This document shows, piece after piece, positions 861 through 43,982 of a DNA stretch of 52,748 bases (position 1 is its first letter; every line of letters starts with the position of its first letter). The notes beneath the pieces are model-generated. The model saw nothing but the letters and a program-made list of their open reading frames with translations. It was not told the origin of the DNA and searched no databases. The position numbers and the translations under genes are program-made. The stretch is from positions 1-52,748 of the forward strand of contig CATDDF010000098.1 in assembly GCA_949498175.1 (NCBI GenBank), written 5' to 3'. The stretch is from Alphaproteobacteria bacterium (lineage in GTDB: Bacteria > Pseudomonadota > Alphaproteobacteria > RS24).

Positions 861-3040
<2,180 letters not shown>

Positions 3041-3100
3041 GACGCTCCAATTTTGGTGAAACAAGAGAAGGGCGCGACAGACTGAGCTTTCGACACCTGC

Positions 3101-3133
3101 CTAACTATTGACAATAGAACTGCCAATAGTTAG
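3101..3133. promoter_or_regulatory. Operator-like inverted repeat upstream of the metallo-hydrolase gene
   Basis: A perfect 10-base inverted repeat, CTAACTATTG (3101-3110) and CAATAGTTAG (3124-3133), has a 13-base spacer. A third CAATAG lies at 3112-3117, making a second palindrome (CTATTG-A-CAATAG). A TTGACA hexamer sits at 3108-3113 inside the repeat. The site ends 21 bases before the start codon at 3155, which suits a repressor-binding site controlling that gene. The repeat is seen directly; the regulatory role is inferred. It could also form a weak hairpin in mdh read-through RNA. Confidence 0.5.
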
Positions 3134-3154
3134 CGTCATGAAAAGGGGTGCATC

Positions 3155-4243
3155 ATGGCCGATAAAGGTAAAAAAATCGTCAAAACAAGTGCGATCATTG
3201 CCGCTCTTTTGGCGGCTCTGGTGCTGGCTCTTATCGGTGCCGTGAGCAATAGCGAGCGCCTGCAAGACCGCTTGGTGACGCGCGCTGTTGGCGGCCTGTT
3301 ATCGGCGCCGATTGCAACGCTGGGCGGCGATAATATTGATATTGTCTTTTGCGGCACCGGTTCGCCTATGGGTGGGGCCGGTCCGCGCGGCACGGCGCAA
3401 TCTTGCGTCGCGGTTTTGCTCGGCGATAAGTTTTTCATCGTCGATACGGGCGCGCGCTCAGCCGATAAGGCGGCAGCCTTGCGCCTGCCGATTCAACGCC
3501 TCGATGCGGTTTTGCTGACCCATTTCCATTCCGACCATATTGCCGCTTTGGGGGATATGCATTTAAACAGCTGGGTGCGCGGGCGCCCGTCCAAGCTTGA
3601 TGTTTATGGCGGGCCCGGCGTTGACCGCGTGGTGGACGGTTTCAATCTCGCCTATGGGCAAGATTATACCTATCGCACCGGCCATCATGGCGAAGATTAT
3701 GTGCCGTCCAGCAAGGCCGGTCTGGTCGCCAAAACCATTCAGGCCGATAGTGTGATTTATGACCAAGACGGCATTAAAATCACCGCGATTACGGTTTATC
3801 ACCCGCCGATTGAACCGGCTTTGGCTTTCCGCTTTGACTATAAGGGGCGCTCCGTGCTGATCAGCGGCGATACGGTGAAAGACGATAATCTCATCGCTGC
3901 GGCAAAAAATGTCGATGTGCTCATTCACGAAGTCATTCAGCGTGATTTGGTCGATATTTTCGTGCAGGCTTTGGAAGATAACGGGCAGGGCAATCTCGGC
4001 AAAATCATCCATGACACGCATGATTATCACGCCTCGCCGGTTGAGGCGGCACAGGCGGCCAATGAAGCCAGTGCCGATTTACTGGTATTTTATCATTACG
4101 CACCGGTGCCGCAAAACGCGATTATGGACCGAATTTTTATGCGCGGGGTTGATGATATTCGCCCCGACGGCGTGCTGGCGGCGCGCGATGGCACACATAT
4201 TCGCCTGCCCGCCAATAGTGAGATTATTTCCATCGAGAAATAG
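3155..4243 (+). CDS. Membrane-anchored metallo-beta-lactamase-fold hydrolase (AtsA/RNase Z-like)
   Basis: 362 residues with one N-terminal membrane segment (about 11-30), so the catalytic domain is probably periplasmic. The metal motif THFHSDH gives H123, H125, D127 and H128, followed by a later SGDT aspartate and C-terminal histidines (HEV, FYHYAP). The run GTGSPMGGAGPRGT and the segment around LNSWVRGR-VYGGPG resemble arylsulfatase AtsA-like members of the RNase Z branch. The substrate is unknown; sulfatase, lactonase or phosphodiesterase activity are all possible. The gene is inserted between mdh and sucC, which are usually adjacent, and has its own operator-like repeat. Start ATG 3155 follows AAAAGGGG. 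Confidence 0.8.
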   Translation: MADKGKKIVKTSAIIAALLAALVLALIGAVSNSERLQDRLVTRAVGGLLSAPIATLGGDNIDIVFCGTGSPMGGAGPRGTAQSCVAVLLGDKFFIVDTGARSADKAAALRLPIQRLDAVLLTHFHSDHIAALGDMHLNSWVRGRPSKLDVYGGPGVDRVVDGFNLAYGQDYTYRTGHHGEDYVPSSKAGLVAKTIQADSVIYDQDGIKITAITVYHPPIEPALAFRFDYKGRSVLISGDTVKDDNLIAAAKNVDVLIHEVIQRDLVDIFVQALEDNGQGNLGKIIHDTHDYHASPVEAAQAANEASADLLVFYHYAPVPQNAIMDRIFMRGVDDIRPDGVLAARDGTHIRLPANSEIISIEK

Positions 4244-4253
4244 CCGTTTTCTG

Positions 4254-4282
4254 TTGAGACGTGGCGGCGCTTGGGCTAGTTT
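4254..4282 (+). promoter_or_regulatory. Candidate sigma-70 promoter for sucCD
   Basis: TTGAGA at 4254-4259 and TAGTTT at 4277-4282 are separated by 17 bases, about 40 bases before sucC. The -35 is good and the -10 is mediocre. Placement in the gap after the metallo-hydrolase gene supports a separate start for the suc genes. Read by eye only. Confidence 0.35.
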
Positions 4283-4321
4283 TCCGCTCAGGTTTTGCGA
4301 AGCGATGAGGGACTTTCACCC

Positions 4322-5491
4322 ATGAATATTCATGAATATCAAGCCAAACAGGTCCTCGGCTCTTTTGGCGTGCCGGTGCCGCGCGGGTTTGTTGCCTTTA
4401 GCGCCGATGAGGCGGTCGAAGCGGCAGAGAAATTGGGCGGCCCTGTTTGGGTCGTGAAAGCGCAAATTCACGCCGGCGGGCGCGGCAAAGGCGGCGGCGT
4501 TAAAGTCGTCAAATCAATTGAGGAAGTGCGCGCCGAAGCGACGCGCATGTTGGGCATGACTTTGGTGACCCATCAAACCGGCCCGGAGGGCAAAGAGGTC
4601 GGCCGTGTCTATGTCGAAGAGGGCTCTGATATTGCCCGCGAGCTCTATTTGTCGGCCCTTGTTGACCGCGCGACATCGCGCATTTCATTTATCGCTTCGA
4701 CCGAAGGCGGCATGGATATTGAAGAAGTGGCGGAAAAAACGCCGGAAAAAATCCTCACCATAAGCGTTGATCCGGCCAGCGGCATTTCCGGCCATCATGG
4801 GCGGCAAATTGCCTTTGCCTTGGGGCTGGAGGGCGAACAGGTAAAACAGGCCAATGCATTGATTGCCAATCTTTACAAAGCTTTTGTCGAAAAAGACATG
4901 TCGCTCTTGGAGATTAATCCGCTTGTTGTTACCGGCGCCGGTGACCTTATCTGCCTCGATGCGAAAGTGAATTTCGATTCCAATGCGCTGTATCGGCAAA
5001 AAGACATTGTCGAACTGCGCGATTTGGCCGAAGAAGATCCGGCTGAAATTGAAGCGTCAAAATATGACCTGTCCTATATTAAATTGGACGGCAAAATCGG
5101 CTGCATGGTAAACGGCGCCGGGCTCGCCATGGCGACCATGGATATTATCAAGCTTTACGGTTCGGAGCCGGCCAATTTCTTGGATGTCGGGGGTGGCGCA
5201 AGTAAAGAAAAAGTCACTGAAGCGTTCAAAATCATTTTGTCCGATGACAATGTGGAAGGCATTTTGGTGAATATTTTCGGCGGCATTATGCGTTGTGACA
5301 TTATCGCTGAAGGGGTGGTCGCCGCGGCTAAAGAATTGAGCCTTAATGTGCCGCTTGTGGTGCGTTTGGAAGGCACGAATGTTGATGAAGGCAAAGAGAT
5401 TATGGCCAATTCAGGCCTCCCAATTATCGCCGCTGATGATTTAAACGATGCAGCCGAGAAAATTGTCGCTGCCGTGAAGGAGGCTGCATAA
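4322..5491 (+). CDS. sucC: Succinyl-CoA synthetase beta subunit
   Basis: 389 residues, normal for the family. With SucD it converts succinyl-CoA, ADP or GDP and phosphate to succinate, CoA and a nucleoside triphosphate. The ATP-grasp domain starts with [10 protein letters not shown]; a glycine-rich loop [11 protein letters not shown] lies near residue 53. The C-terminal ligase/CoA domain has the typical [10 protein letters not shown] segment. ATG 4322 is chosen over an upstream in-frame start because it gives the conserved MNIHEYQ N-terminus. Its TAA overlaps the sucD ATG (TAATG), so the two subunits are translationally coupled for equal production. Confidence 0.98.
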
Positions 5492-6366
5492 TGTCGGTTT
5501 TGGTCAATAAGGATACAAAAGTCATTTGTCAGGGCTTTACCGGCTCGCAAGGCACATTTCATTCCGAACAGGCGATTGCCTATGGCACGAAAATGGTCGG
5601 CGGGGTGACCCCCGGGCGCGGCGGTTCAAGCCATCTCGACTTACCGGTTTTTGATACGGTGGCGCAGGCGGTAGAAAAAACCGGCGCCACGGCGTCGGCC
5701 ATTTATGTGCCGCCGCCTTTTGCCGGCGATGCCATTTTGGAAGCCATTGAAGCCGGTATTGAACTGGCCGTATGCATTACCGAAGGCATTCCGGTCAGCG
5801 ATATGATCAAGGTCAAGCGCGCTTTGCAAGGCTCCAATACACGTCTGGTCGGGCCCAATTGCCCGGGCGTCATTACGCCGGATGAGTGCAAAATCGGCAT
5901 CATGCCGGGCCATATTCACCGCCGCGGATCGGTCGGCATTGTCTCGCGCTCGGGCACGCTGACTTATGAGGCGGTGGCGCAAACAACGGCTGCCGGCCTC
6001 GGCCAATCAACCTGTATCGGGATTGGCGGTGACCCGGTCAATGGCACGAATTTCATTGATTGTTTGGATTTGTTCCTCGGTGATGATGAAACCGAAAGCA
6101 TTATCATGATCGGTGAGATTGGCGGTTCGGCGGAAGAAGAAGCGGCGGAATTTTTGAAAGCCTCGAAAGTAAAAAAACCCATGGTCGGCTTTATCGCCGG
6201 TGTTACGGCACCGCCGGGCCGTCGCATGGGCCATGCCGGTGCGATTATTGCCGGTGGCAAAGGCGGGGCTGACGATAAAATGGAAGCCATGCGCGCGGCC
6301 GGCATCACCGTCTCGCCGTCACCTGCCTCTTTGGGCACCACTTTGGTCGAGGTGTTGAAAGGGTGA
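5491..6366 (+). CDS. sucD: Succinyl-CoA synthetase alpha subunit
   Basis: 291 residues. It binds CoA through its N-terminal Rossmann domain ([11 protein letters not shown]) and carries the phosphohistidine in the [10 protein letters not shown] motif near residue 250. It forms a heterodimer with SucC and makes the TCA-cycle substrate-level phosphorylation step. The start codon shares its A with the sucC stop. Length and motifs are complete. A 92-base gap with a candidate promoter separates it from sucA. Confidence 0.98.
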
Positions 6367-6392
6367 TTTTATCCTCCCTGTGCCGCTAATCA

Positions 6393-6421
6393 TTGCTCTT
6401 GGCGGTCAAAGGGTCTAATAT
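6393..6421 (+). promoter_or_regulatory. Candidate sigma-70 promoter for sucAB-lpd
   Basis: TTGCTC (6393-6398) and TAATAT (6416-6421) are separated by exactly 17 bases in the sucD-sucA gap, about 38 bases before the sucA start. The -10 is close to consensus and the -35 keeps TTG. It suggests the 2-oxoglutarate dehydrogenase genes can be transcribed apart from sucCD. Read by eye only. Confidence 0.4.
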
Positions 6422-6458
6422 TCCTTCAGGTCGCGAAGGGCCTTAAACGGATAGGCAC

Positions 6459-9455
6459 ATGTCGGATAAGAATTCGCCAGCCAAAAACATTTCTGACATC
6501 TCCCAGTCTCATTTTGACGGGGCCAATGCGCTTTATCTTGAACAGCAATATGCCCGTTATAAAGCCGGTGATACGGCTTTGGATGCCGGATGGAAGAGCT
6601 ATTTTGCCGCTCTGGACGACCCGATTGCACCGCATCGACCAAGCTGGCAGCGCGATGACTGGCCGCCGAAGATAAACGGCGATATGACGGCTGTCTTGGA
6701 CGGCAATTGGCCGGAGGCAAATATTGACGATTTGCCTGCGCCGCAGGCTTTGGCGGGCAAGATTGAAGCGCGGCTGGACGGGCAAAATGTCGAAGCGGTG
6801 CGCGCTGCCACTTTGGACAGTATTCGCGCCATTATGATGATCCGCGCCTATCGCTTTCGCGGTCATTTGGCGGCCAATCTTGACCCGTTGGGGATTGAAC
6901 CGCCGGGCAGCCATCCCGAGCTTGACCCGACTTCTTATGGCTTCACGGAAGCCGATTATGACCGACCGATTTTCATCGATTATGTGCTCGGACTTGAAAG
7001 CGCCACCATTCGCGAGATGCTGGATATTTTGCACCGCACTTATTGCGGCACAGTGGCGCTTGAATTCATGCATATTTCCGACCCCGAAGAAAAAGCATGG
7101 CTGCAAGAGCGTATTGAAGGGCCCGACAAGGAAGTGGCTTTTACCGATATGGGCAAGCAGGCGATTTTTCAAAAATTGGTTGAGGCGGAAGGGTTGGAGC
7201 AATTTATCGATGTCAAATATACCGGCACCAAACGTTTCGGTTTGGATGGCGGTGAGGCACTGATACCGGCACTGGAACAAGTGATTAAGCGCGGTGGCAA
7301 TCTCGGTGTTAAAGAAGTGGTGTTAGGCATGCCGCATCGGGGCCGTTTGAATGTATTGACCAATGTCATGGGCAAACCGTTCAAGGCGCTGTTTCACGAA
7401 TTTAAGGGCGGCTCAGCCAATCCGGAAGATATAGAGGGTTCGGGTGATGTAAAATATCACCTCGGCGCCTCATCAGACCGTGAATTTGACGGCAATAAGG
7501 TTCATTTATCCTTGTCGCCCAATCCGTCGCATTTGGAGGCGGTCGATCCGGTCGTGCTCGGTAAAGCGCGCGCCAAGCAAGACCAATATAAAGAACACCC
7601 GCGTGCCATGGCCGATCGCAGCAAGGTCATCCCGCTTTTGTTGCACGGCGATGCGGCTTTTGCCGGCCAGGGCGTGGTCGCCGAATGTTTGGGCTTATCC
7701 GGCCTTATCGGCCATAAATCGGGCGGCTCCATTCACTTTATCGTCAATAATCAAATCGGCTTTACCACCAATCCGCGCTTTTCGCGCTCCTCGCCCTATC
7801 CCTCCGATGTCGCGAAAATGGTTGAAGCGCCGATTTTTCACGTCAATGGCGATGACCCCGAAGCGGTGGTATTCGCCGCCAAAGTGGCGACTGAGTTTCG
7901 GCAAAAATTTTTAAAGCCCGTTGTTATCGATATGTTCTGCTATCGTCGCCATGGCCATAATGAGGGCGATGAACCGGCTTTTACCCAACCGACCATGTAT
8001 AAAAAAATCAAAGGGCATGACTCGGTGGTGCAAAAATACGGTCGCCGCTTGGTTGATGAAGGCCTGTTGAGCGAAGATGCGCTTAATGCCGCCAAAGCCG
8101 ATTACCGCGCGCAGCTTGATGAGGCGTTTGAAGCGGCCAATAGTTTCAAGCCCAATAAGGCCGATTGGCTGGATGGCAAATGGTCGGGTCTGGAACGAAA
8201 AAGCGCTGAATTTGTGCGCGGCGATACCGGTGTTGCGGAAAGCCTATTGCGAGAAGTGGGCGCCGGTCTGACACGTGTGCCTGAGGGGTTTAATTTGCAC
8301 CGCGCTTTGACACGGCAATTAAAGGCCAAAGACCAAATGTTTGAAAGCGGCAGCGGGTTTGATTGGGCAACAGCAGAAGCACTGGCTTTCGGCTCGCTTT
8401 TGTTGGACGGCCATCCGGTGCGTTTGGCCGGTCAAGACAGCGAGCGCGGCACGTTTTCGCAACGCCATTCCGCTTGGATCGACCAAGAAACTGAGCGGCG
8501 TTATAAGCCGCTCAAATATATTCGTGACGAGCAGGCTTTGTTCGAAGTCATTAATTCCATGCTGTCGGAAAATGCCGTGCTCGGTTTTGAATATGGCTAT
8601 TCGCTGGCCGAGCCCAATACGCTGGTTTTATGGGAGGCGCAATTCGGCGATTTTGCCAATGGCGCACAAGTGGTGGTCGATCAATTTATCTCATCGGGCG
8701 AAAATAAATGGCTGCGTATGTCGGGTTTGGTCATGTTGTTGCCGCATGGTTATGAGGGGCAAGGCCCCGAGCACAGTTCGGCGCGGCTTGAGCGCTATTT
8801 GCAAATGTGCGCGGAAGAAAATATGCAAGTCGCCAATTGCACCACACCGGCCAATTATTTCCATATTTTGCGCCGCCAGGTGAAGCGCAATTTCAGAAAG
8901 CCGCTTATTTTGATGACGCCGAAATCACTTTTGCGGCATAAAAAATGCGTCTCCAATCTTGAAGACATGACCATCGGATCGTCCTTCCACCGCGTTTTAT
9001 GGGATGGCCGCGATGCACGTACGCCCGATGCCGGTCCAGCGGATGGTCGCGGTGCGTTGAAAGCGGCCAAAGATATCCGCCGCGTGGTTTTGTGTTCGGG
9101 CAAAGTGTATTTCGACCTGCTGGAAAAATGCGAAGCGGAAAATATTGATGATGTGTATTTAATGCGACTCGAACAGCTTTATCCGGTGCCGCATGGGCCT
9201 TTATTGGCCGAATTGGAACCGATGGCGCATGCCGAAATGGTCTGGTGTCAGGAAGAGCCGCGCAATATGGGCGCGTGGCGCTTTATCGAACCGGAATTGG
9301 AAGAGGTTTTGACCAATTTGGGCGGCAAGCATAAGCGGGTCGGTTATGCCGGTCGGCGCGCTTCGGCCTCGACGGCCAGTGGTTTGATGAGCCGCCATTT
9401 GGAACAAAGAGAGGCGTTGTTGAAAGCGGCGCTGATTGACCCTGTCGACAGATAG
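6459..9455 (+). CDS. sucA: 2-oxoglutarate dehydrogenase E1 component
   Basis: 998 residues, a full-length homodimeric thiamine-diphosphate E1o. It decarboxylates 2-oxoglutarate and transfers the succinyl group to the lipoyl arm of SucB. The N-terminus has the E1o signature [13 protein letters not shown]. The active-site segments [11 protein letters not shown] (near residue 290), [21 protein letters not shown] and [11 protein letters not shown] are intact. The C-terminal half carries [16 protein letters not shown]. It is the first gene of a sucA-sucB-lpdA operon that encodes the whole complex in order E1-E2-E3. Confidence 0.98.
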
Positions 9456-9474
9456 GCGAGACGGAGAAAGAGAC

Positions 9475-10761
9475 ATGGCCAGTGAAATTCGCGTCCCCAC
9501 ATTGGGCGAGTCGGTGACCGAAGCGACGATTGCGCAATGGTATAAAAAACCCGGCGATGCTGTGGCGATGGATGAGCCGCTTTGTGAATTGGAAACCGAC
9601 AAAGTGACCATTGAAGTGCCGGCGCAAAGCGCCGGTGTGCTGGCTGAAGTTGTGGTCAATGAGGGCGAGACGGTTGAGGTTGGGGCGCTTTTGGGCTCGA
9701 TTGGTGAAGGCGACGGACGGGCAGTATCGGCTGCAGCTGAAGCCGCCGCAGTGCCGACCCCGGAAGCAGCCATTGAAGCCGTGTCGAAAACAGAAACCGC
9801 GCCAGCCACAGAAGCGGCACCGATGACAGCTGCACCGGCCGGCAGTAAGCCGGTTGATACAAGCGCCTTGTCGCCGGCGGCGCGCCGCGTGGTCGAAGAA
9901 CACGGCCTTGATCCGGCGCAGATTACCGGCACCGGAAAAGACGGTCGCTTGACCAAGGAAGATGCGTTAAAAGCGGCCAGCGGCGCGCCCGCGCCCGCCG
10001 CGTCACTAGCGCCGACACCGGCTGCGCCGGCCGCTCAGGCAGCGTCGACGCTCCAAAAAGGCGTGCGCGAAGAACGGGTGAAAATGACGCGGCTCAGAAA
10101 AACCATTGCCGCGCGCTTGAAAGAAAGCCAAAACACGGCAGCGCAATTGACCACTTTCAATGAGGTCGATATGGGCGCGCTGATGGATGTGCGGCGCGAA
10201 TATAAGGATTTGTTTGAACAAAAATACGGTGCGCGGCTTGGCTTTATGGGCTTCTTTGCGCGCGCCTGTGTCACTGCCTTAACGGAAATTCCCGCCATTA
10301 ATGCCGAAGTGACGGATGATGAAATCATTTATAAAAATTACGTCAATATGGGGATTGCCGTGGGCACGGAAAAAGGTCTGGTGGTGCCGGTCATTCGCGA
10401 TGTGCAAAATATGGGGCTGGCCGATATTGAATTGGCAGTTGCCGAAATGGGGCGCAAGGCGCGCGACGGCAAGCTGGCGATTGATGATTTGCAAGGCGGC
10501 ACTTTCACCATGTCCAATGGCGGCGTTTACGGCTCTTTGATGAGCACGCCGATTTTGAACATGCCGCAATCGGGCATTTTGGGCATGCATAAGATTCAAG
10601 AGCGTCCGGTTGTTATTGACGGTCAGATTGTTGTGCGGCCGATGATGTATCTCGCCTTATCTTATGACCACCGCATTGTCGACGGCAAGGAGGCGGTGAC
10701 GTTTTTGGTGCGTGTGAAGGAGTCTTTGGAAAATCCCGAACGGCTTTTGCTCAATATTTAG
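9475..10761 (+). CDS. sucB: Dihydrolipoamide succinyltransferase, E2 component of 2-oxoglutarate dehydrogenase
   Basis: 428 residues with a single lipoyl domain (residues 1-75, lipoylated K43 in [11 protein letters not shown]). An Ala/Pro-rich linker follows, then a peripheral E3-binding domain ([17 protein letters not shown], near 136), a second linker and the acyltransferase core with the catalytic motif YDHRIVDG near the C-terminus. It forms the 24-mer core that accepts succinyl groups from SucA and passes them to CoA. ATG 9475 is chosen over an upstream start inside sucA because of the [14 protein letters not shown]-terminus and the GGAGAAAG ribosome site. Confidence 0.98.
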
Positions 10762-10780
10762 CGCCGATAAAGAGGAAAAA

Positions 10781-12193
10781 ATGAGCGACGAAAATAATTT
10801 CGATATGGTGGTTATCGGGGCCGGTCCTGGCGGCTATGTCTGCGCTTTGCGGGCTGCCCAATTGGGCATGAAAGTGGCATGCATTGACAAGCGCGGCGCG
10901 CCCGGCGGCACGTGTTTGAATGTCGGCTGCATTCCGTCCAAAGCGCTTTTGCACGCTTCTGAGGTTTATGCAGAAGCGGCGCATGCTGCCGATATGGGCA
11001 TTCAATTCGGCGCGGTGAAATTGGATCTTGAAAAAATGATGGCTTATAAGGCGCAAGGCATTACCGGCAATACGGATGGCGTACGCTTTTTGCTGAAGAA
11101 AAATAAGGTCGAGGAAATTGAAGGGGCAGCCAAGCTGACCGCGCCGGGCGCCATTGAGGTTGCTTTGCTGGCCGGTGGTACGCGGGCATTATCGGCCAAA
11201 CATATTGTTATTGCCACCGGTTCGGAAGTGACGCCACTGCAAGGCATTGATATGGATGAGGAACGAATTGTTTCCTCCACCGGCGCTTTGTCTTTCGATA
11301 AAGTGCCGAAACATTTGGCAATTATCGGGGCCGGCATTATCGGGCTGGAATTGGGCTCGGTGTGGAAAAGACTGGGCGCAGAAGTGACGGTGATTGAGTT
11401 TCTCGACCGCATCACGCCCGGCATGGATGCCGATATGGCGAAAAACTTCCAACGCGTATTGAAAAAACAGGGCATTAAATTCATGCTTGGCAAAAAAGTC
11501 ACCGCCGCCAAAGCGTTGAAAAATTCGGTCAAGCTGACATTGGCACCGGCATCTGGCGAGGGCGAGGAAGAAAGCCTGACCGCCGAACGCGCGCTGGTCG
11601 CCATTGGCCGTCGCCCGCATACGCAAGGGCTTGGCTTGGAGGCGATTGGCGTGGCGCTGGATGCAGCGGGACGGGTTGAAACCGACACGCATTTCAAAAC
11701 CAATATTGACGGCATTTATGCCATTGGCGATGTCATTGCCGGGCCGATGTTGGCACATAAGGCAGAAGATGAAGGGGTTGCATTGGCCGAGCATTTGGCC
11801 GGCAAACCGGCTCATGTCAATTATGATGCCATTCCGTCGGTCGTCTATACGGCGCCGGAAGTGGCTTGGGTCGGACGCACCGAAGAAGAGCTGAAGGATG
11901 CCGGTGTCGACTATAAAGTCGGCAAATTTCCCTTCACCGCCAATGGCCGCGCCAAAGTCAATGGCACGACGGACGGCTTTGTGAAAATTCTTGCCGATGC
12001 CAAAAGCGACAAGGTTTTGGGCGTGCATATTTTGGGTGCGCAAGCCGGTGACATGATTGCCGAGGCCGCCATTGCCATGGAGTTCTCAGCCAGCGCCGAA
12101 GATATTGCCCGTACCTGTCACGCCCATCCGACGCTCACCGAAGCGGTCAAAGAAGCTGCTTTGGCGGTCGATAAGCGCGCTTTGCACATGTAA
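10781..12193 (+). CDS. lpdA: Dihydrolipoamide dehydrogenase (E3)
   Basis: 470 residues. This FAD-dependent disulfide oxidoreductase reoxidises the lipoyl arm of SucB with NAD+. The FAD site GAGPGGY is at residues 13-19 and the redox disulfide is C45-C50 (GGTCLNVGC). The NAD-binding motif GAGIIGLELGSV lies near residue 180, and the C-terminal catalytic pair HAHPTLTE near 450. An AGAGGAAAA ribosome site precedes ATG 10781. It closes the suc operon and converges with xerC with only 2 bases between stops. Confidence 0.98.
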   Translation: MSDENNFDMVVIGAGPGGYVCALRAAQLGMKVACIDKRGAPGGTCLNVGCIPSKALLHASEVYAEAAHAADMGIQFGAVKLDLEKMMAYKAQGITGNTDGVRFLLKKNKVEEIEGAAKLTAPGAIEVALLAGGTRALSAKHIVIATGSEVTPLQGIDMDEERIVSSTGALSFDKVPKHLAIIGAGIIGLELGSVWKRLGAEVTVIEFLDRITPGMDADMAKNFQRVLKKQGIKFMLGKKVTAAKALKNSVKLTLAPASGEGEEESLTAERALVAIGRRPHTQGLGLEAIGVALDAAGRVETDTHFKTNIDGIYAIGDVIAGPMLAHKAEDEGVALAEHLAGKPAHVNYDAIPSVVYTAPEVAWVGRTEEELKDAGVDYKVGKFPFTANGRAKVNGTTDGFVKILADAKSDKVLGVHILGAQAGDMIAEAAIAMEFSASAEDIARTCHAHPTLTEAVKEAALAVDKRALHM

Positions 12194-31292: not shown

Positions 31293-32192
31293 ATGGCGGT
31301 TCTTACACATTTACAGCAATTGGAAGCGGAAAGTATTGAAATTATGCGCGAAGTGGTCGCGCAGGTCGACAATCCGGTCATGCTTTATTCCATCGGTAAA
31401 GATAGCGCGGCCATGCTGCATGTCGCCAAAAAGGCATTTTTCCCTGCGCCGCCGCCCTTTCCGCTCTTACATGTCGATACGACGTGGAAATTTCGCGATA
31501 TGTATAAATTGCGCCAAAAAGCGGCCGATGAGGCGGGCATAGAGCTGATTGTGCATCAAAATCCGCAGGCGCAAGCGCAGGGCATTAACCCGTTTGACCA
31601 TGGTGCGTTGCATACCGATATGTGGAAGACGGAAGGGTTGAAACAAGCGCTTGATAAACACCAATTCGATGCGGCCTTTGGCGGGGCGCGGCGCGATGAA
31701 GAAAAATCGCGCGCCAAGGAGCGAATTTTTTCTTTTCGCAGCGAAAACCATCAATGGGACCCGAAAAATCAGCGCCCCGAATTATGGTCTTTGTATAATG
31801 CGCGCAAAAAGCCCGGCGAAAGCATGCGCGTCTTCCCCATGTCGAACTGGACCGAGCTTGATATTTGGCAATATATTCGGCTCGAGAACATCGAAATCGT
31901 GCCGCTTTATTTTGCCGCGCCGCGCCCGACAGTGGAGCGCGACGGGCTGATTTTAATGGTCGATGATGAGCGCTTCCCGTTACATGAGGGCGAAGAACCG
32001 CTCATGCGCTCGGTGCGTTTCCGCACATTGGGCTGTTATCCGCTGACCGGCGCGGTCGAAAGCCAAGCAACGACACTTGATGAGGTCATCCAAGAAATGC
32101 TGCTGACCACCACCTCGGAACGCCAGGGTCGTGCCATCGACCAAGAGGCCGGTGCGTCCATGGAAGTGAAAAAACAGCAGGGGTATTTTTAA
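31293..32192 (+). CDS. cysD: Sulfate adenylyltransferase subunit 2
   Basis: 299 residues, PP-loop ([11 protein letters not shown], near residue 33) ATP-alpha hydrolase. With the GTPase CysN it makes adenosine 5'-phosphosulfate from sulfate and ATP. The segments [31 protein letters not shown] and [12 protein letters not shown] are typical. Its stop overlaps the cysNC start (TAATG). It provides activated sulfate for cysteine synthesis or for sulfation of small molecules. Confidence 0.97.
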
Positions 32193-34117
32193 TGTCCGCT
32201 TCTGACACCGGCTATCGCGCCGATGCGCTGATCGGCCAAGATATTGCTGCTTATTTGAAAGCGCATGAAGAAAAAACCATGCTGCGCTTCATCACTTGCG
32301 GTTCGGTCGATGACGGCAAATCGACGCTTATCGGGCGGCTTTTATATGACAGCAAAATGATTTTTGACGACCAGCTGAGCGCGCTGGAAGCGGCCTCAAA
32401 AAAATCCGGCACGCAAGGCGATGCGATTGATTTTGCCCTTTTGGTCGACGGGCTGGCGGCCGAGCGCGAGCAGGGCATTACCATTGATGTCGCCTATCGT
32501 TTCTTTGCCACTGAAAAGCGCAAATTCATTGTCGCCGACACGCCGGGCCATGAGCAATATACCCGCAATATGGTGACCGGTGCGTCGACCGCCGATTTGG
32601 CTGTGTTGTTGGTCGATGCGCGCCAGGGCGTGCTGACGCAAACGCGCCGCCATGCCTATTTGGTGCATTTATTGGGCATTAAACATATTGTTTTGGCGGT
32701 CAATAAAATGGATTTGGTCGATTTCAGCGAGACCCGCTTCCAAGACATTGTCGGTGATTTCAATCGGTTTGCCGCCGATCTCAATATGGCGCCGCCTTTG
32801 GCCATTCCCTTATCGGGGCTGGCCGGTGACAATATTACCGGCCGCAGCGACAACACGGCTTGGTATAAAGGGCCATCGCTTTTGGCGCATCTTGAAAATG
32901 TCGAACTGGCCGATAATGCGGCACAAAAACAAAGCTTCGCCATGCCGGTGCAATGGGTCAATCGGCCCAATCTCGATTTTCGCGGGTTTAGCGGGCGCGT
33001 GGCGGGCGGCACGGTCAAGCCGGGCGATAAGATACGCATTGTGCCCTCGGGCAAGACCAGCACGGTAAAAGAGATTGTCACCATGGCGGCCGATGGTAGC
33101 CGCGCCGATGTGTCCGAAGCATTGGCCGGTCAATCGGTAACGCTGACGCTCAATGATGAAATTGACTGCTCGCGCGGCGATGTCATTGCCGCAGCCGATA
33201 ATCCGCCTTTGGCGGCAGACCGCTTTGAAGCCAGCCTGGTTTGGATGGATGAAGCGGAAATGCTGCCCGGCCGCGCCTATGAATTGCGGCTTGGCACACA
33301 GGCCGTCTCGGCCCGCGTGCAAGCGCCGAAATATGCCGTCAATGTCAATAATATGGAACATTTGGCGGCCAAAACATTGGGCTTGAATGAAATTGGCGTG
33401 GTCGAATTGGCAACCGACCGACCGGTGGTGTTTGCGCCCTATGCCGACAGCCAAAAGCTTGGCAGTTTTGTGCTGATTGATAAAATATCCAATGCCACAG
33501 TGGCCGCCGGCATGCTGCATTTTTCCTTGCGCCGCGCCCATAATATTCATTGGCAAGCGGTCGATATTGACCGCGCCGCCCATGCTGAATTGAAAGACCA
33601 AAAGCCGAAAATTCTTTGGTTCACCGGCCTGTCCGGTTCGGGCAAATCGACCATTGCCAATGCGGTGGAGAAAAAGCTGCACGCCAATGGCAAACATACC
33701 TTCTTGCTCGATGGCGATAATGTGCGCCACGGCCTGAATAAGGATTTGGGCTTTACCGATGCTGACCGTATTGAAAATATTCGCCGCATTGGCGAGGTCG
33801 CCAAGCTGATGACCGATGCCGGTTTGATTTTACTGACCGCTTTTATTTCGCCGTTCCGCGCCGAGCGCGATATGGCGCGCGCCATGGTGGCTGACGGCGA
33901 TTTTGTCGAAATTCATGTCGATACGCCGCTGGATGTGGCCGAGCAGCGCGATGTCAAAGGCTTGTATAAAAAAGCCCGTGCCGGTGAGTTGAAAAACTTC
34001 ACCGGCATTGACAGCCCTTATGAGCCGCCTGAAGCGCCTGAAATTACCGTCAATACGACCGAGCTGAGCGCCGAAGAAGCGGCCGATTTAATCATCGATT
34101 ATCTTGATAAAAATTAG
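32192..34117 (+). CDS. cysNC: Bifunctional sulfate adenylyltransferase subunit 1 / adenylylsulfate kinase
   Basis: 641 residues. The N-terminal CysN part (about 1-455) is an EF-Tu-like GTPase with [26 protein letters not shown] and NKMD. The C-terminal APS kinase (about 465-641) has a P-loop GLSGSGKST and [15 protein letters not shown]. It makes PAPS from sulfate in two steps, together with CysD. The fused form is common in alphaproteobacteria and rhizobial NodQ. The start overlaps the cysD stop. Confidence 0.97.
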
Positions 34118-36087: not shown

Positions 36088-36177
36088 GGAGAGGTGCCGG
36101 AGTGGTTGAACGGGGCGGTCTCGAAAACCGTTGTGCGTGCAAGCGTACCGAGGGTTCGAATCCCTCTCTCTCCGCCA
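36088..36177 (+). tRNA. tRNA-Ser (anticodon CGA)
   Basis: A 90-base class II tRNA with encoded CCA. The acceptor arms GGAGAGG and CCTCTCTCC-type 3' end pair. The anticodon loop CTCGAAA gives anticodon CGA, reading serine UCG codons. A long variable arm (about TGTGCGTGCAAGCGTAC) and the T loop GGTTCGAATCC are present. The 3' end carries G-CCA. It closely resembles the bacterial tRNA-Ser(CGA) pattern. Confidence 0.96.
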
Positions 36178-36261
36178 TAAATTTTCCTCTAAATATTTTT
36201 CAGTCGCTTCTATTGCCTCTCTGCCTGACCCATGCCACGCTTTCAAAAAGGGAGAGGGGCT

Positions 36262-36627
36262 ATGAGCTATTATTTATTCATCGCCGCCGCGGCGGTTTGC
36301 CTGGTTAGTGTTTATGTGCATGGCGTGTGGGGTCGACGTCTCTATTCCGGCTTTATCGGCAATAGCAATTTGCCGGCGCGCGAAAAAGCGGTCAGCTTGG
36401 TGTCATGGGATGTGTTTACCGTCATGCTGGCGGTCAGCGGCTTGACGCTGATATGCGTCGCGCTCAATCCCGATATGAAGCTGATGGCTTATCCGATTAT
36501 GCTGATGCATTTGGGCGGCGCCGGTGTTTTTCTTTTCTTAATCCTTAATGGGCATAAAGCACTTATTCGTTTGCCGGGGGCATTTTTAATGGGCGGTACC
36601 GGCGTGCTGATTTTGCTGGCGCTGTAA
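36262..36627 (+). CDS. Small four-helix membrane protein of unknown function
   Basis: 121 residues, not recognised. Hydropathy by eye suggests four membrane helices (about 3-21, 50-68, 74-95 and 103-120). A conserved-looking polar motif VHGVWGRRLYSG follows the first helix. The start is ATG 36262 with GGGAGAGGGG just upstream; an in-frame ATG at 36232 is less likely. It lies between the tRNA and the first P450 gene, on the same strand, but the P450 has its own promoter. No function is proposed. Confidence 0.75.
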   Translation: MSYYLFIAAAAVCLVSVYVHGVWGRRLYSGFIGNSNLPAREKAVSLVSWDVFTVMLAVSGLTLICVALNPDMKLMAYPIMLMHLGGAGVFLFLILNGHKALIRLPGAFLMGGTGVLILLAL

Positions 36628-36725: not shown

Positions 36726-38063
36726 ATGCTCTCATTGTCAGAGACCATTCAGCCGGAAGATAATAGCTATCGACCGCCACATATTAAATATCAAACGCCG
36801 GAAGGCTTTGATTTGATGGATATTATGGCCTTTGCCGAGCATGGTCAGCCCTATGAATATTTCCACACATTGCGCGCGCAAGCGCCGGTTGCTTGGTGGC
36901 AGCCGCCGTCAGATATTGATGTCGCCGGTTTTTGGTCGCTGTCGCGCTATGAAGATGTCAAAAAATGCGATCTTGATGCCAAGACATTTTCATCCGGCAA
37001 AGGCGGTATTTTGATGGGCTATAGCGCGCGCCAGCAAGGCCCGAAAAGGCTGAGCGGGGCGGCCTTGAACTCAATGATTAATTTGGACCAGCCGTTTCAT
37101 ATTCCGTTGCGCATGGCGCATCGACCGTTTTTTACGCCCGATTATATTGCTCATTTGCAAACCCGTGTTGAGGATGAGGTTGATCGCCTGCTCGACAATA
37201 TGGAAGCGATTGCCAAGAAAAATGACGGCAAGGTCGATATGGTGACCAATTTTTCCGAATGGTTGCCCATGTATACTTTATGCGAAATGCTCGGCATTGA
37301 TGAAAAAGACCGGCATAAAATCGTCCGTTGGATGCATTATTTGGAAAACGCGCAATATATTATCGGCAATCCCGATGCCAAGGTCAGCCCGTGGTTCATT
37401 ATGAAGTTCCTTTGGAATATTCGGCAAATGTTCAATTACGGGCAAAAGGTTTTGCAAGACCGGCGCAAAAATCCGCGCGATGATTTATTGACGGTGATTG
37501 CCACCACTGAGGTCGATGGCGAGCCGATGGACCAGTCTTATCTCGACGGTTCATGGTTGCTGATTATTTTCGCCGGCAATGACACGACGCGCAATTCACT
37601 GTCGGGCACGATGCGGCTATTGACGCAGTTTAAAGACCAAAAGCAAATGCTGTTGGATGATCCCAATCTGGTGCCGGCCATGGTGCCGGAAGCTTTGCGT
37701 CTGGTCTCGCCGGTCATGTATATGCGCCGCACGGCGCTGGCCGAGGCTGAGTTTTCCGGCCAACAGATTATGCCGGGTGAGAAAGTCGTCATGTATTATG
37801 GCGCCGCCAATCGCGATCCGGAGGTGTTTCAAAACCCCGATCAAATGGATATGCACCGCAATAATGTGCAAGACCATTTGGCCTTCGGCACCGGCCCGCA
37901 TGTTTGTCTCGGCCAACGCATTGCCAATATGCAGCTTGAGACCGCTTATAAGCGTATTCTTGACCGTTTTCCGAATATTGAATGGACCGGCAAGCAGCGT
38001 CACGCGCCGAATAATTTCGTCAACGCCATCTCGCATTTGGAAGTTGATTTGGGCATTCAATAA
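36726..38063 (+). CDS. Cytochrome P450 (family not assigned)
   Basis: 445 residues, soluble bacterial class I type. The I-helix oxygen-activation motif AGNDTTRNS begins at residue 283, E322-x2-R325 forms the K-helix pair, and the haem loop FGTGPHVCLG carries ligand C394. The AGNDTTRNS and YMRRTA stretches resemble the CYP125/124/153 group acting on aliphatic chains of steroids, terpenoids or alkanes. It is clearly different from the CYP153-type protein at 41891. No ferredoxin or reductase is adjacent. Its TAA overlaps the sulfatase ATG. The substrate is unknown. Confidence 0.92.
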   Translation: MLSLSETIQPEDNSYRPPHIKYQTPEGFDLMDIMAFAEHGQPYEYFHTLRAQAPVAWWQPPSDIDVAGFWSLSRYEDVKKCDLDAKTFSSGKGGILMGYSARQQGPKRLSGAALNSMINLDQPFHIPLRMAHRPFFTPDYIAHLQTRVEDEVDRLLDNMEAIAKKNDGKVDMVTNFSEWLPMYTLCEMLGIDEKDRHKIVRWMHYLENAQYIIGNPDAKVSPWFIMKFLWNIRQMFNYGQKVLQDRRKNPRDDLLTVIATTEVDGEPMDQSYLDGSWLLIIFAGNDTTRNSLSGTMRLLTQFKDQKQMLLDDPNLVPAMVPEALRLVSPVMYMRRTALAEAEFSGQQIMPGEKVVMYYGAANRDPEVFQNPDQMDMHRNNVQDHLAFGTGPHVCLGQRIANMQLETAYKRILDRFPNIEWTGKQRHAPNNFVNAISHLEVDLGIQ

Positions 38064-39541
38064 TGCCTGCCATAATGTCAGCAAGACTCAAAATATGGCT
38101 TAAACGCCTCGGCCTTTTGATGGCGCTGCCGATGCTGACAATCATTTTGACGATTGTCTATGTGAGCGTCAAAATCGCCACTTATGAGCAGCGCGATGAC
38201 GCCGCCCATATGGCGTCAAAAGTCGATTATTTGAAATCCATTGCCCGCGCCGCGCCGGAAAACGCTCCGGATTTGGTGGTGATTTTGTTTGATGATTTGG
38301 GCTATGGCGATGTCGGTTTTACCGGCAATCAAATAATAGCCACGCCGCATATGGATGCGCTGGCCGATAAGGGCATGGTGCTTGAAAATTATTATGCGCC
38401 GGCGCCGGTCTGTTCGCCGTCGCGCGCCGCCATGTTGACGGGGCGCTTGCCGCCGCGTGCCGGTCTCACCCATGTGCCGTTTCCCTCGGGCACCATATTT
38501 GACCGCCTCAATCGGTTTTTCGGTAATCCGGTGCGCCTGCCGCGCGAAGAAATCCTATTGGCCGATATTTTGCAAGCGGTCGGCTATGAAACGGCTATGG
38601 TCGGTAAATGGCATATGGGCGACCATGCCGGTTCCGTGCCGACGCAGTTTGGCTTTCAGCGCTTTTTCGGCACTTATTATTCCAATGATATGAACCCGTT
38701 CACGCTGGTTCGCGGCACGGCGGATAAAGGCGAAGCAATCAGCCATGCCGCGCCGTTTGACCAGACACAACTCAATCGGCTTTATGCCGAAGCGGCGGAA
38801 AGATTTATCGCCGAAGCGGCGACCGATAAGCCGCTATTTCTTTATTTCGCCCATAATTTCCCGCATGTGCCGCTTTACGCCGCGCCCTCCGAAGCGGGGC
38901 GCTCCGATGCCGGTCTTTATGGCGATGTTGTGCAAGGTCTCGATGATACGGTCGGGCGCCTTATAGCGGCGCTCAAACAGCGCGGGCGCTTTGACAATAC
39001 GCTTATTCTCATCACCAGCGATAATGGCCCATGGTGGGAAGGGCGCGGCGTCGGGCGCGGCCGCAAAGGGGTCAGTTTTGAAGGCGGCATTCGCGTGCCG
39101 TTCATCGCCTATTGGCCGCAACAGATAAAACCGGCGCGCTCTGCGGCGCTGGCCATGGGCACGGATTTACTGCCGACCATGCTCGATGAATTAAATGTGC
39201 CGCCGCCGCCCGACCGCGTTCTGGACGGCAAATCCATCGCGGCCAGCCTGCGCGGCGGGCCAAGCCCGCATGAGGTGCTGTATCATTATGCTGCCGGCAC
39301 GCTGATGGCGGTGCGCAGCGCCACGCATAAATATCGCGACCGCAAAGCGGTTGCATATCCGACCGATCCGGTGCGCTTGCCGATTTGGCAGGCGCATGGC
39401 CCCTGGCTGTTTGACATGCGCGCCGACCCTCAAGAAGCTTATGATATTTCCATGCAACAAGCCGATATGGCGGCGCAGATGAAGGCGCTGATGGAGGCCA
39501 AAAACGCCGAAATGAAGGCCAATCCGCGTGGTTGGAAATAG
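38063..39541 (+). CDS. Type I sulfatase, membrane-anchored
   Basis: 492 residues. An N-terminal membrane segment (about 15-37) should place the catalytic domain in the periplasm. The sulfatase signature C117-S-P-S-R121 supplies the cysteine that becomes formylglycine, and metal ligands DD 77-78 (LFDDLGYGD) and TSDNGPWW are present, with K182/H184 in GKWHMG. It is an arylsulfatase A-like member that hydrolyses a sulfate ester; the substrate is unknown. It starts within the P450 stop codon (TAATG), so the two are translationally coupled. It needs a formylglycine-generating enzyme from elsewhere in the genome. Confidence 0.92.
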   Translation: MPAIMSARLKIWLKRLGLLMALPMLTIILTIVYVSVKIATYEQRDDAAHMASKVDYLKSIARAAPENAPDLVVILFDDLGYGDVGFTGNQIIATPHMDALADKGMVLENYYAPAPVCSPSRAAMLTGRLPPRAGLTHVPFPSGTIFDRLNRFFGNPVRLPREEILLADILQAVGYETAMVGKWHMGDHAGSVPTQFGFQRFFGTYYSNDMNPFTLVRGTADKGEAISHAAPFDQTQLNRLYAEAAERFIAEAATDKPLFLYFAHNFPHVPLYAAPSEAGRSDAGLYGDVVQGLDDTVGRLIAALKQRGRFDNTLILITSDNGPWWEGRGVGRGRKGVSFEGGIRVPFIAYWPQQIKPARSAALAMGTDLLPTMLDELNVPPPPDRVLDGKSIAASLRGGPSPHEVLYHYAAGTLMAVRSATHKYRDRKAVAYPTDPVRLPIWQAHGPWLFDMRADPQEAYDISMQQADMAAQMKALMEAKNAEMKANPRGWK

Positions 39542-41890: not shown

Positions 41891-43168
41891 ATGAGCGAAG
41901 CGATTAAACAAGAAACCGTGCCGGGGCATGATTATGCCTATAATACGCCTTTGGAGGATTTGGATGTTTCCAATCCGCATCTCTGGCCGTCAGAAGAAAT
42001 GTGGCCGATTTTTGAGCGTTTGCGCGATGAAGATCCGCTGCATTATTGCAAGGATGGCTGGACCTCAGAAGGACGCACCGAAATGGATGAGCCCATCGGT
42101 CCCTATTGGTCAGTGACCCGCTATGACGATATTATGGCCATTGATACGGACCATAAGCGTTTTTCGTCCGAGCCGGCAATTGTGCTGCCCAATCCGGCAG
42201 AGGATTTTGAATTGCCCATGTTCATTGCTATGGACCAGCCGAAACATGATGTGCAGCGCAAAACCGTGGCACCGATTGTCTCGCCCATGAGCCTGGCGGA
42301 AATGTCGACCCTCATTCGAGAGCGCACGCAAAATCTGCTCGATACCGTGCCGGTCAATGAAGAATTTGACTGGGTCGATACGGTATCGATTGAGCTGACC
42401 ACAATGATGTTGGCCACTTTGTTCGATTTCCCGTTTGACGACCGCCGCAAATTGACCCGCTGGTCGGACGTCGCGACAGCGGGGCCGGAAACCGGCATTG
42501 TCGAAAGTGAAGATCAGCGTCGCGCCGAATTGATGGAATGTGTGGAATATTTCATGGGGCTGTGGCAACAGCGCGTCGGCAAAGACGGCCATGATTTAAT
42601 CACCATGTTGGCCAATGGCGAAGAAACCAAAGATATGGACACAATGGAATATCTCGGCAATCTGATTTTGCTGATTGTCGGTGGTAATGACACGACGCGC
42701 AATTCCATGTCGGCCTCGATTTACGGTTCCAATCTGTTCCCCGCCGAATGGGAAAAAGTGCGCGCCAATCGTGACCTCATCCCCAATACGGTGGCCGAGA
42801 TTATCCGCTGGCAAACGCCTTTGGCCTATATGCGCCGCACCGCATTGGAAGATGTGGAGATGCACGGCAAGACCATCAAAAAAGGTGACAAGGTTGCCAT
42901 GTGGTATGTCTCAGGCAATCGCGATGAGCGCAAATTCGACAATGCCAATGTGCTGGATTTCGAACGCGCCAATGCACGCAACCATATTTCCTTCGGTTTC
43001 GGTATTCACCGTTGCTTCGGCAATCGTCTGGCCGAATTGCAATTGCAAATTTTGTGGGATGAAATGCTCAAACGCTTCTCGAAAGTTGAAGTTGTCGGTG
43101 AGCCGAGCCGGAATATTTCCAGCTTTGTCAAAGGCTACACTAAAATGAACGTCATTTGCCGCGACTAG
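41891..43168 (+). CDS. CYP153-type cytochrome P450 (alkane/fatty-acid terminal hydroxylase)
   Basis: 425 residues. The protein matches the CYP153 pattern throughout: LEDLDVSNP (21-29), PMFIAMDQPKHDVQRKTV (109-126), LATLFDFPFDDR, LLIVGGNDTTRNSMS (I-helix, GGNDT 264-268), E303-x2-R306 and haem loop FGFGIHRCFG with C375. The family hydroxylates the terminal carbon of medium-chain alkanes, alkenes and fatty acids in marine and soil bacteria. It needs a ferredoxin and ferredoxin reductase, which are not adjacent here. GGGAGTAGGCA precedes the ATG. An SDR follows after 4 bases and could oxidise the alcohol product. Confidence 0.93.
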   Translation: MSEAIKQETVPGHDYAYNTPLEDLDVSNPHLWPSEEMWPIFERLRDEDPLHYCKDGWTSEGRTEMDEPIGPYWSVTRYDDIMAIDTDHKRFSSEPAIVLPNPAEDFELPMFIAMDQPKHDVQRKTVAPIVSPMSLAEMSTLIRERTQNLLDTVPVNEEFDWVDTVSIELTTMMLATLFDFPFDDRRKLTRWSDVATAGPETGIVESEDQRRAELMECVEYFMGLWQQRVGKDGHDLITMLANGEETKDMDTMEYLGNLILLIVGGNDTTRNSMSASIYGSNLFPAEWEKVRANRDLIPNTVAEIIRWQTPLAYMRRTALEDVEMHGKTIKKGDKVAMWYVSGNRDERKFDNANVLDFERANARNHISFGFGIHRCFGNRLAELQLQILWDEMLKRFSKVEVVGEPSRNISSFVKGYTKMNVICRD

Positions 43169-43172
43169 CCAG

Positions 43173-43982
43173 ATGACATTATTGAATGATTGTAGCGGTA
43201 AGGTCGCGCTGATTACCGGCGCGGCAGGCGGTATCGGGCGCTCTTGTGCGCAAAAACTGGCCGAAGCCGGTGCCCGTGTTATCGTCACTGATATTGAGCA
43301 AGAAGGGTTGCAAAAAACCGTCTCGCTGATCACTGAAGCGGGCGGCACGGCGCGCGGCTTGGCGCAAGATGTTACCGAGGAAGCCGTGTGGCAAGAGCTC
43401 ATTGCCGATATTAAGGCCAATGAAGGGGCGCTGCATGTTCTGGTCAATAATGCCGGTATTGCCATCGGCGTGTCGATTTTGGAAATGTCGTTGGACGATT
43501 GGCGCCGCCAAAGCGCAATAAATCTTGATGGCGTGTTCCTCGGCTGCAAACACGCCATTCCGCTCATGGCGGAAAGCGGGGCCGGTTCGATTATCAATAT
43601 TTCTTCGATTGCGGGCCTGCGCGGCGCGGCCGGATTGGCCGGTTATTGCGCGACAAAGGGCGGGGTGCGGCTGTTTTCAAAATCTGTTGCCTCGGAATGT
43701 GCGGCGGCCGAGCTGCCGATACGCTGCAATAGCGTGCATCCCGGCATTATCGATACCGATATTTGGGGGCGTGAGATTGCCGGTATTGCCGCCAATAATC
43801 CCGAGATGATGGCCGAAGGCGGCAATCGCATTGATATTAATTTGGTGGCGGCGGGTGTGCCGGGCGGCAAGCCGGGCCATCCTGATGACATTGCCAATGG
43901 CGTTGTCTATTTGGCCTCGGATGCTTCTTCTTATGTCAATGGTTCGGAACTGGTCATTGATTACGCCATGACGGCGCGATAA
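43173..43982 (+). CDS. Short-chain dehydrogenase/reductase in the CYP153 operon
   Basis: 269 residues, classical SDR. The cofactor loop TGAAGGIG is at residues 15-22, NNAGIAIG near 92, the catalytic serine in NISSIAG and Y-x3-K in YCATKGG near 158. The resemblance is to 3-alpha/20-beta-hydroxysteroid and secondary-alcohol dehydrogenases. It starts 4 bases after the CYP153 stop, so it is almost certainly co-transcribed and probably oxidises the hydroxylated product or a related alcohol. The substrate is not proven by sequence. Confidence 0.9.
   Translation: MTLLNDCSGKVALITGAAGGIGRSCAQKLAEAGARVIVTDIEQEGLQKTVSLITEAGGTARGLAQDVTEEAVWQELIADIKANEGALHVLVNNAGIAIGVSILEMSLDDWRRQSAINLDGVFLGCKHAIPLMAESGAGSIINISSIAGLRGAAGLAGYCATKGGVRLFSKSVASECAAAELPIRCNSVHPGIIDTDIWGREIAGIAANNPEMMAEGGNRIDINLVAAGVPGGKPGHPDDIANGVVYLASDASSYVNGSELVIDYAMTAR

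Follow-up and report, generated by a model that had tools for sequence, protein, structure and literature searches.

The closest described systems share different features with the gene pair considered here. In marine Bacteroidetes, P450 and sulfatase genes occur in one catabolic locus, the porphyran locus, in which a P450 demethylates 6-O-methyl-D-galactose and zinc alcohol dehydrogenases (ADHs) are also encoded (PMC10033563). For the P450, the best sequence and fold matches are the mycobacterial hydroxylases CYP124, CYP125, CYP126 and CYP142, soluble proteins with an AGNDTT-type I-helix and separate redox partners. For the sulfatase, the closest branch is that of arylsulfatase A, GALNS and steryl-sulfatase, with which it shares CSPSR, the metal ligands and the GKWH and HVP motifs.

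The stretch of DNA analyzed (the window, 52,748 nucleotides, contig C98) comes from a metagenome-assembled genome (G000; 1.68 Mb, 92.6% complete, 118 contigs) that belongs to the marine PS1 clade. A literature search on the PS1 clade and cytochrome P450 gave no match. The initial annotation proposed that the pair removes sulfate from a sulfated lipid, steroid or terpenoid and then hydroxylates the product. The pair exists as described, is conserved and is restricted to its lineage. This proposal is, tentatively, the best single reading of it, and a transcript shared by functionally unrelated genes ranks close to it.

The gene pair in the window

The features of the locus are as follows.

36232..36627, + strand: small membrane-protein ORF upstream of the P450
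36666..36693, + strand: promoter-like site TTGCCC-16-TATAAT, 32 bp 5' of the P450 start (consensus match only)
36726..38063, + strand: cytochrome P450 gene, 445 aa (Pfam p450 PF00067, E 1.9e-26)
38063..39541, + strand: S1 (type I) sulfatase gene, 492 aa (Pfam Sulfatase, E 5.5e-54)

Base 38063 is common to the P450 stop TAA and the sulfatase start ATG (TAATG), as the initial annotation had observed. By itself this overlap does not imply the matched production that the initial annotation read from it. One-base overlaps are not unusual in the window and occur in 4 of the 26 close same-strand pairs checked (at 5491, 32192, 38063 and 48923). A second in-frame ATG, at 38075, could also be the sulfatase start. 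No Shine-Dalgarno-like motif is seen 4-17 bases 5' of either ATG, so the exact start is not fixed. Coupled re-initiation at the sulfatase start is plausible.

The small membrane ORF has no match in Pfam or NCBIfam. Several PS1 genomes have it in front of the P450, among them genomes of genus g4 that have no sulfatase at that position. Other neighbors of the pair are thiC-like, SDR, quinone oxidoreductase, CysD/NC-like and CYP153-like P450 genes, and no redox-partner gene adjoins it. The locus is not a polysaccharide utilisation locus in its make-up, as no glycoside hydrolase or SusC/D-like gene lies beside the pair. At window 41891-43982, the CYP153-like P450 (542 bits to PDB 6hqg) is followed 4 bp further on by an SDR gene, and both, together with thiC and a downstream peptidase-like gene, are conserved across PS1 genera. 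A serine tRNA-like sequence, noticed by eye only, lies at window 36090-36178, with the divergent SDR gene on one side and the small membrane gene on the other.

Conservation of the pair

Both genes were searched in 61 genomes and gene maps of the loci were compared. The genes are side by side in 11 genomes, which are all the intact loci found, and these belong to two PS1 genera, g1 (G000, G001, G002, G003, G004, G005, G010 and G011) and g6 (G016, G019 and G022). The recurrence in relatives on which the initial annotation had staked its proposal is thus found. Six genomes have a spacing of -1 and five have one of +1 to +7 bp; in G008 the contigs break off at the expected junction. The surroundings differ among genomes, with a small membrane gene, a divergent SDR gene or an ADH gene upstream and thiC or pyruvate dehydrogenase genes downstream. 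Adjacency in 11 genomes from two genera is more than chance. The contig of G004 (L071, G004:C117) changes abruptly around 9600-9800 from G010-like to G002-like sequence; the change point lies in the last ~150 bp of the P450 and the sequence is G002-like from there on. Either recombination or a chimeric assembly produced this locus, and G004 does not count as independent evidence.

Genus g4 (G014, G018, G024 and G026) has a P450 that is 86-87% identical, with no sulfatase beside it, and in G018 and G024 thiC is directly 3' of the P450. The P450 tree places g4 within a poorly resolved g1+g4 group that is separate from g6. Because the pair is present in both g6 and g1, this placement suggests that the pair is ancestral and that the sulfatase was lost in g4. 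Outside PS1, P450s that are 50-70% identical are found in Maricaulis, Hellea, Luminiphilus, OM182, SAR86 and other marine Alpha- and Gammaproteobacteria, and none of the 64 such loci has an adjacent homologous sulfatase. The pair is thus a lineage-restricted operon built on a widespread marine P450. One candidate pairing outside PS1, L113, was rejected because its sulfatase has a CGPSR motif, scores 134 bits where true orthologs reach at least 949, and does not adjoin the P450. Within 8 kb (2425-10852), L113 holds a P450 of the same family, an ADH, a hydrolase, a Baeyer-Villiger-like monooxygenase, an MFS-type transporter and this unrelated sulfatase.

The cytochrome P450

The Pfam match, the ExxR motif (EALR) and the Cys heme loop (FGTGPHVCLG) identify the protein as a cytochrome P450; the I-helix reads AGNDTT. 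The catalytic Glu/Arg and Cys residues are invariant in 37 homologs, and pairwise dN/dS values of 0.02-0.10 indicate purifying selection. No signal peptide or hydrophobic N-terminus is seen, which fits the cytoplasmic location that had been proposed.

The predicted model has a pLDDT of 92. By sequence and fold, the nearest solved P450s are CYP125MRCA (36% identity), CYP126A1 (33%), and CYP124 and CYP142 (30-31%), with Z values of 43-46, and CYP142A2 with cholesterol sulfate (PDB 4tri) is among them. Identity to M. tuberculosis CYP125 is 28%. The conventional threshold for one CYP family is 40% identity, and at 28-36% the PS1 protein lies outside CYP125 (steroid C26-monooxygenase). The CYP family assignment foreseen in the initial annotation therefore ends near CYP124/125/126/142, in no family and at no more than 36% identity. 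These neighbors provide a lead to lipid or sterol-side-chain hydroxylation. The porphyran-locus P450, a 6-O-methyl-galactose demethylase, belongs to family CYP236A; no CYP236A is among the sequence and fold matches listed for the PS1 P450, and absence from that listing is not exclusion.

A survey of steroid degraders detected no orthologs of CYP125 or CYP142 among Proteobacteria (PMC4810484), which agrees with the marine P450 forming a family of its own. Searches for KshA (PF19298) found it only in g3, which does not have this P450, and not in G000 or in any other genome searched from g1, g4 and g6. Steroid growth by the complete classical route (aerobic 9,10-seco catabolism) is ruled out by the absence of KshA, and use of the sterol side chain only is possible.

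The sulfatase and its maturation

The complete CSPSR motif reported by the initial annotation is present at residues 117-121, together with the metal ligands DD77-78 and DN320-321. These residues define an S1 (formylglycine) sulfatase, and CSPSR is invariant in the PS1 orthologs. There is a single hydrophobic stretch at residues 16-34, with four Lys/Arg residues before it and no second segment, and the proposed N-terminal anchor and periplasmic location fit this sequence. Pairwise dN/dS values of 0.04-0.17 indicate purifying selection on this gene as well. The AlphaFold model is unreliable (pLDDT 49).

Among solved sulfatases, the best matches are arylsulfatase A (277 bits), GALNS (261) and steryl-sulfatase (255), followed by S1_19 and carrageenan sulfatases; such matches do not decide between a lipid and a sugar substrate. 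Homologs at 40-46% identity in other Alphaproteobacteria are found with GH3 glycosidases, kinases of the FGGY and PfkB types, MFS_2 transporters and KDPG aldolase, so sugars are favored for the wider sulfatase family. The PS1 branch of the tree is long (1.6 changes per site), and the PS1 substrate may therefore differ from that of the wider family. Some mobility of the gene is also apparent. In G024 (g4) a separate sulfatase copy, away from the P450, adjoins an MFS_2 transporter, and its sister (100/100 support) is a 66% identical sulfatase from a different alphaproteobacterial family (L183, G372:C70:118-1587). Horizontal transfer of these copies is likely from their placement. A short peptide upstream of the G372 sulfatase has no match to the MFS_2 transporter beside the G024 copy.

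The proposal also depended on a maturase, and G000 has a formylglycine-generating enzyme (FGE), encoded by one gene at G000:C104:3302-4072 (239 bits). Both active-site Cys residues are conserved across the PS1 FGE alignment, and the lipobox-like N-terminus makes it likely that the FGE is a lipoprotein. The sulfatase Cys would then be converted to formylglycine. Anaerobic sulfatase maturase is absent in 28 of 28 genomes of the order, including G000. In four relatives (G004, G010, G016 and G019), FGE was not found with either the Pfam model or a PS1-specific profile (E up to 1), which leaves these genomes with no detectable maturase. Their sulfatases (L012, L016, L020 and L019 for G004, G010, G016 and G019, respectively) keep CSPSR despite this. 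Between G016 and G019, which both lack FGE, the dN/dS of the sulfatase is 0.044; it is ~0.055 on the G010 branch versus 0.064 on that of G001 (a three-taxon estimate made by hand from pairwise values). The sulfatase in the FGE-less relatives is under strong purifying selection.

An assembly gap is possible for G016 and G019, as their contigs end near the FGE cluster. In G004 the syntenic FGE cluster is assembled and contains no FGE. G010 is assembled in 3 contigs, is 100% complete, and also lacks the dehalogenase-like gene that neighbors FGE. Alternatives to the known maturases include weak activity of the unmodified cysteine and a third system in E. coli (PMC6189696); the latter, as cited there, was proposed from aslB and ydeM mutants (Benjdia 2007). 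It is rather unlikely that the sulfatase of PS1 members with neither FGE nor anaerobic maturase, for which G010 is the best case, is matured by a third system or acts with its cysteine unmodified. Relatives that have the sulfatase and lack every known maturase would be a natural setting in which to test for a third maturation system.

Possible roles of the pair

In the desulfate-then-hydroxylate reading, the sulfatase and the P450 would be made from one transcript. The sulfatase, anchored on the periplasmic side of the inner membrane, would remove sulfate from a small sulfated hydrophobic alcohol such as a sterol or terpenoid sulfate or a sulfolipid. The freed alcohol would enter the cell and be hydroxylated by the P450, which would be soluble and need separate redox partners. 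As the P450 is kept without the sulfatase, the latter may be an add-on that widens the substrate supply. This reading is favored by the spacing of -1 to +7 bp in 11 genomes despite varied flanks and by purifying selection on both genes. It is also favored by the nearest solved P450s, 4tri included, the presence of steryl-sulfatase among the nearest sulfatases, the FGE in the genome itself, and the production of sterol sulfates by diatoms in the sea (PMC5670183). The relatives, the FGE and the compartments thus agree with what the initial annotation proposed. The shared route itself is plausible, and is weakened by the g4 P450s and the 64 loci outside PS1 that lack an adjacent sulfatase, by the sugar genes around the sulfatase relatives and the MFS_2 gene beside the G024 copy, and by the absence of KshA.

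The same observations bear on a shared operon with no shared pathway, which is a possibility to be taken almost as seriously. The sulfatase would have been inserted between the P450 and thiC in a PS1 ancestor and would use the P450 promoter for an unrelated sulfate-ester or sulfated-sugar task, while the P450 carries out its own core lipid task. A P450 that is widespread without the sulfatase and retained alone in g4, sister sulfatase copies that lie away from it in G024 and G372, and the ordinary nature of one-base overlaps in the window all fit this explanation. However, in two genera the genes of the pair have stayed adjacent while their flanks on either side were rearranged. A sugar route is doubtful; here the sulfatase would take sulfate off a sugar or glycoside from algae, and oxidative loss of an O-methyl group would be the task of the P450, as when marine Bacteroidetes use porphyran. 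The sugar clusters around the sulfatase relatives and the ADH directly 5' of the P450 in G016 and G019 are in keeping with it, but the P450 clusters with hydroxylases of lipids and sterols, and the pair has no glycoside hydrolase, SusC/D-like or redox-partner gene beside it. It is very unlikely that the sulfatase scavenges sulfate for the nearby CysD/CysNC-like genes (31293-34117). These lie ~4 kb 5' of the sulfatase in G000, G003, G002 and G008, but they form a different transcription unit and are not beside the pair in g6, and seawater is rich in sulfate.

The pair is a two-gene unit, conserved in a streamlined marine lineage and accessible to testing, and it places a possible substrate clue beside a widespread, uncharacterized marine P450 family.

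Comparison with known systems

The PS1 P450 differs from mycobacterial CYP124/125/126/142 in its low identity (28-36%), in its occurrence in marine Proteobacteria, and in the lack of KshA in the genera that have the pair. The PS1 sulfatase is set apart from the arylsulfatase A/GALNS/steryl-sulfatase branch by its single N-terminal anchor. In the porphyran locus, redox partners, glycoside hydrolases and SusC/D adjoin the P450 and sulfatases, whereas PS1 has a two-gene unit whose P450 resembles lipid hydroxylases.
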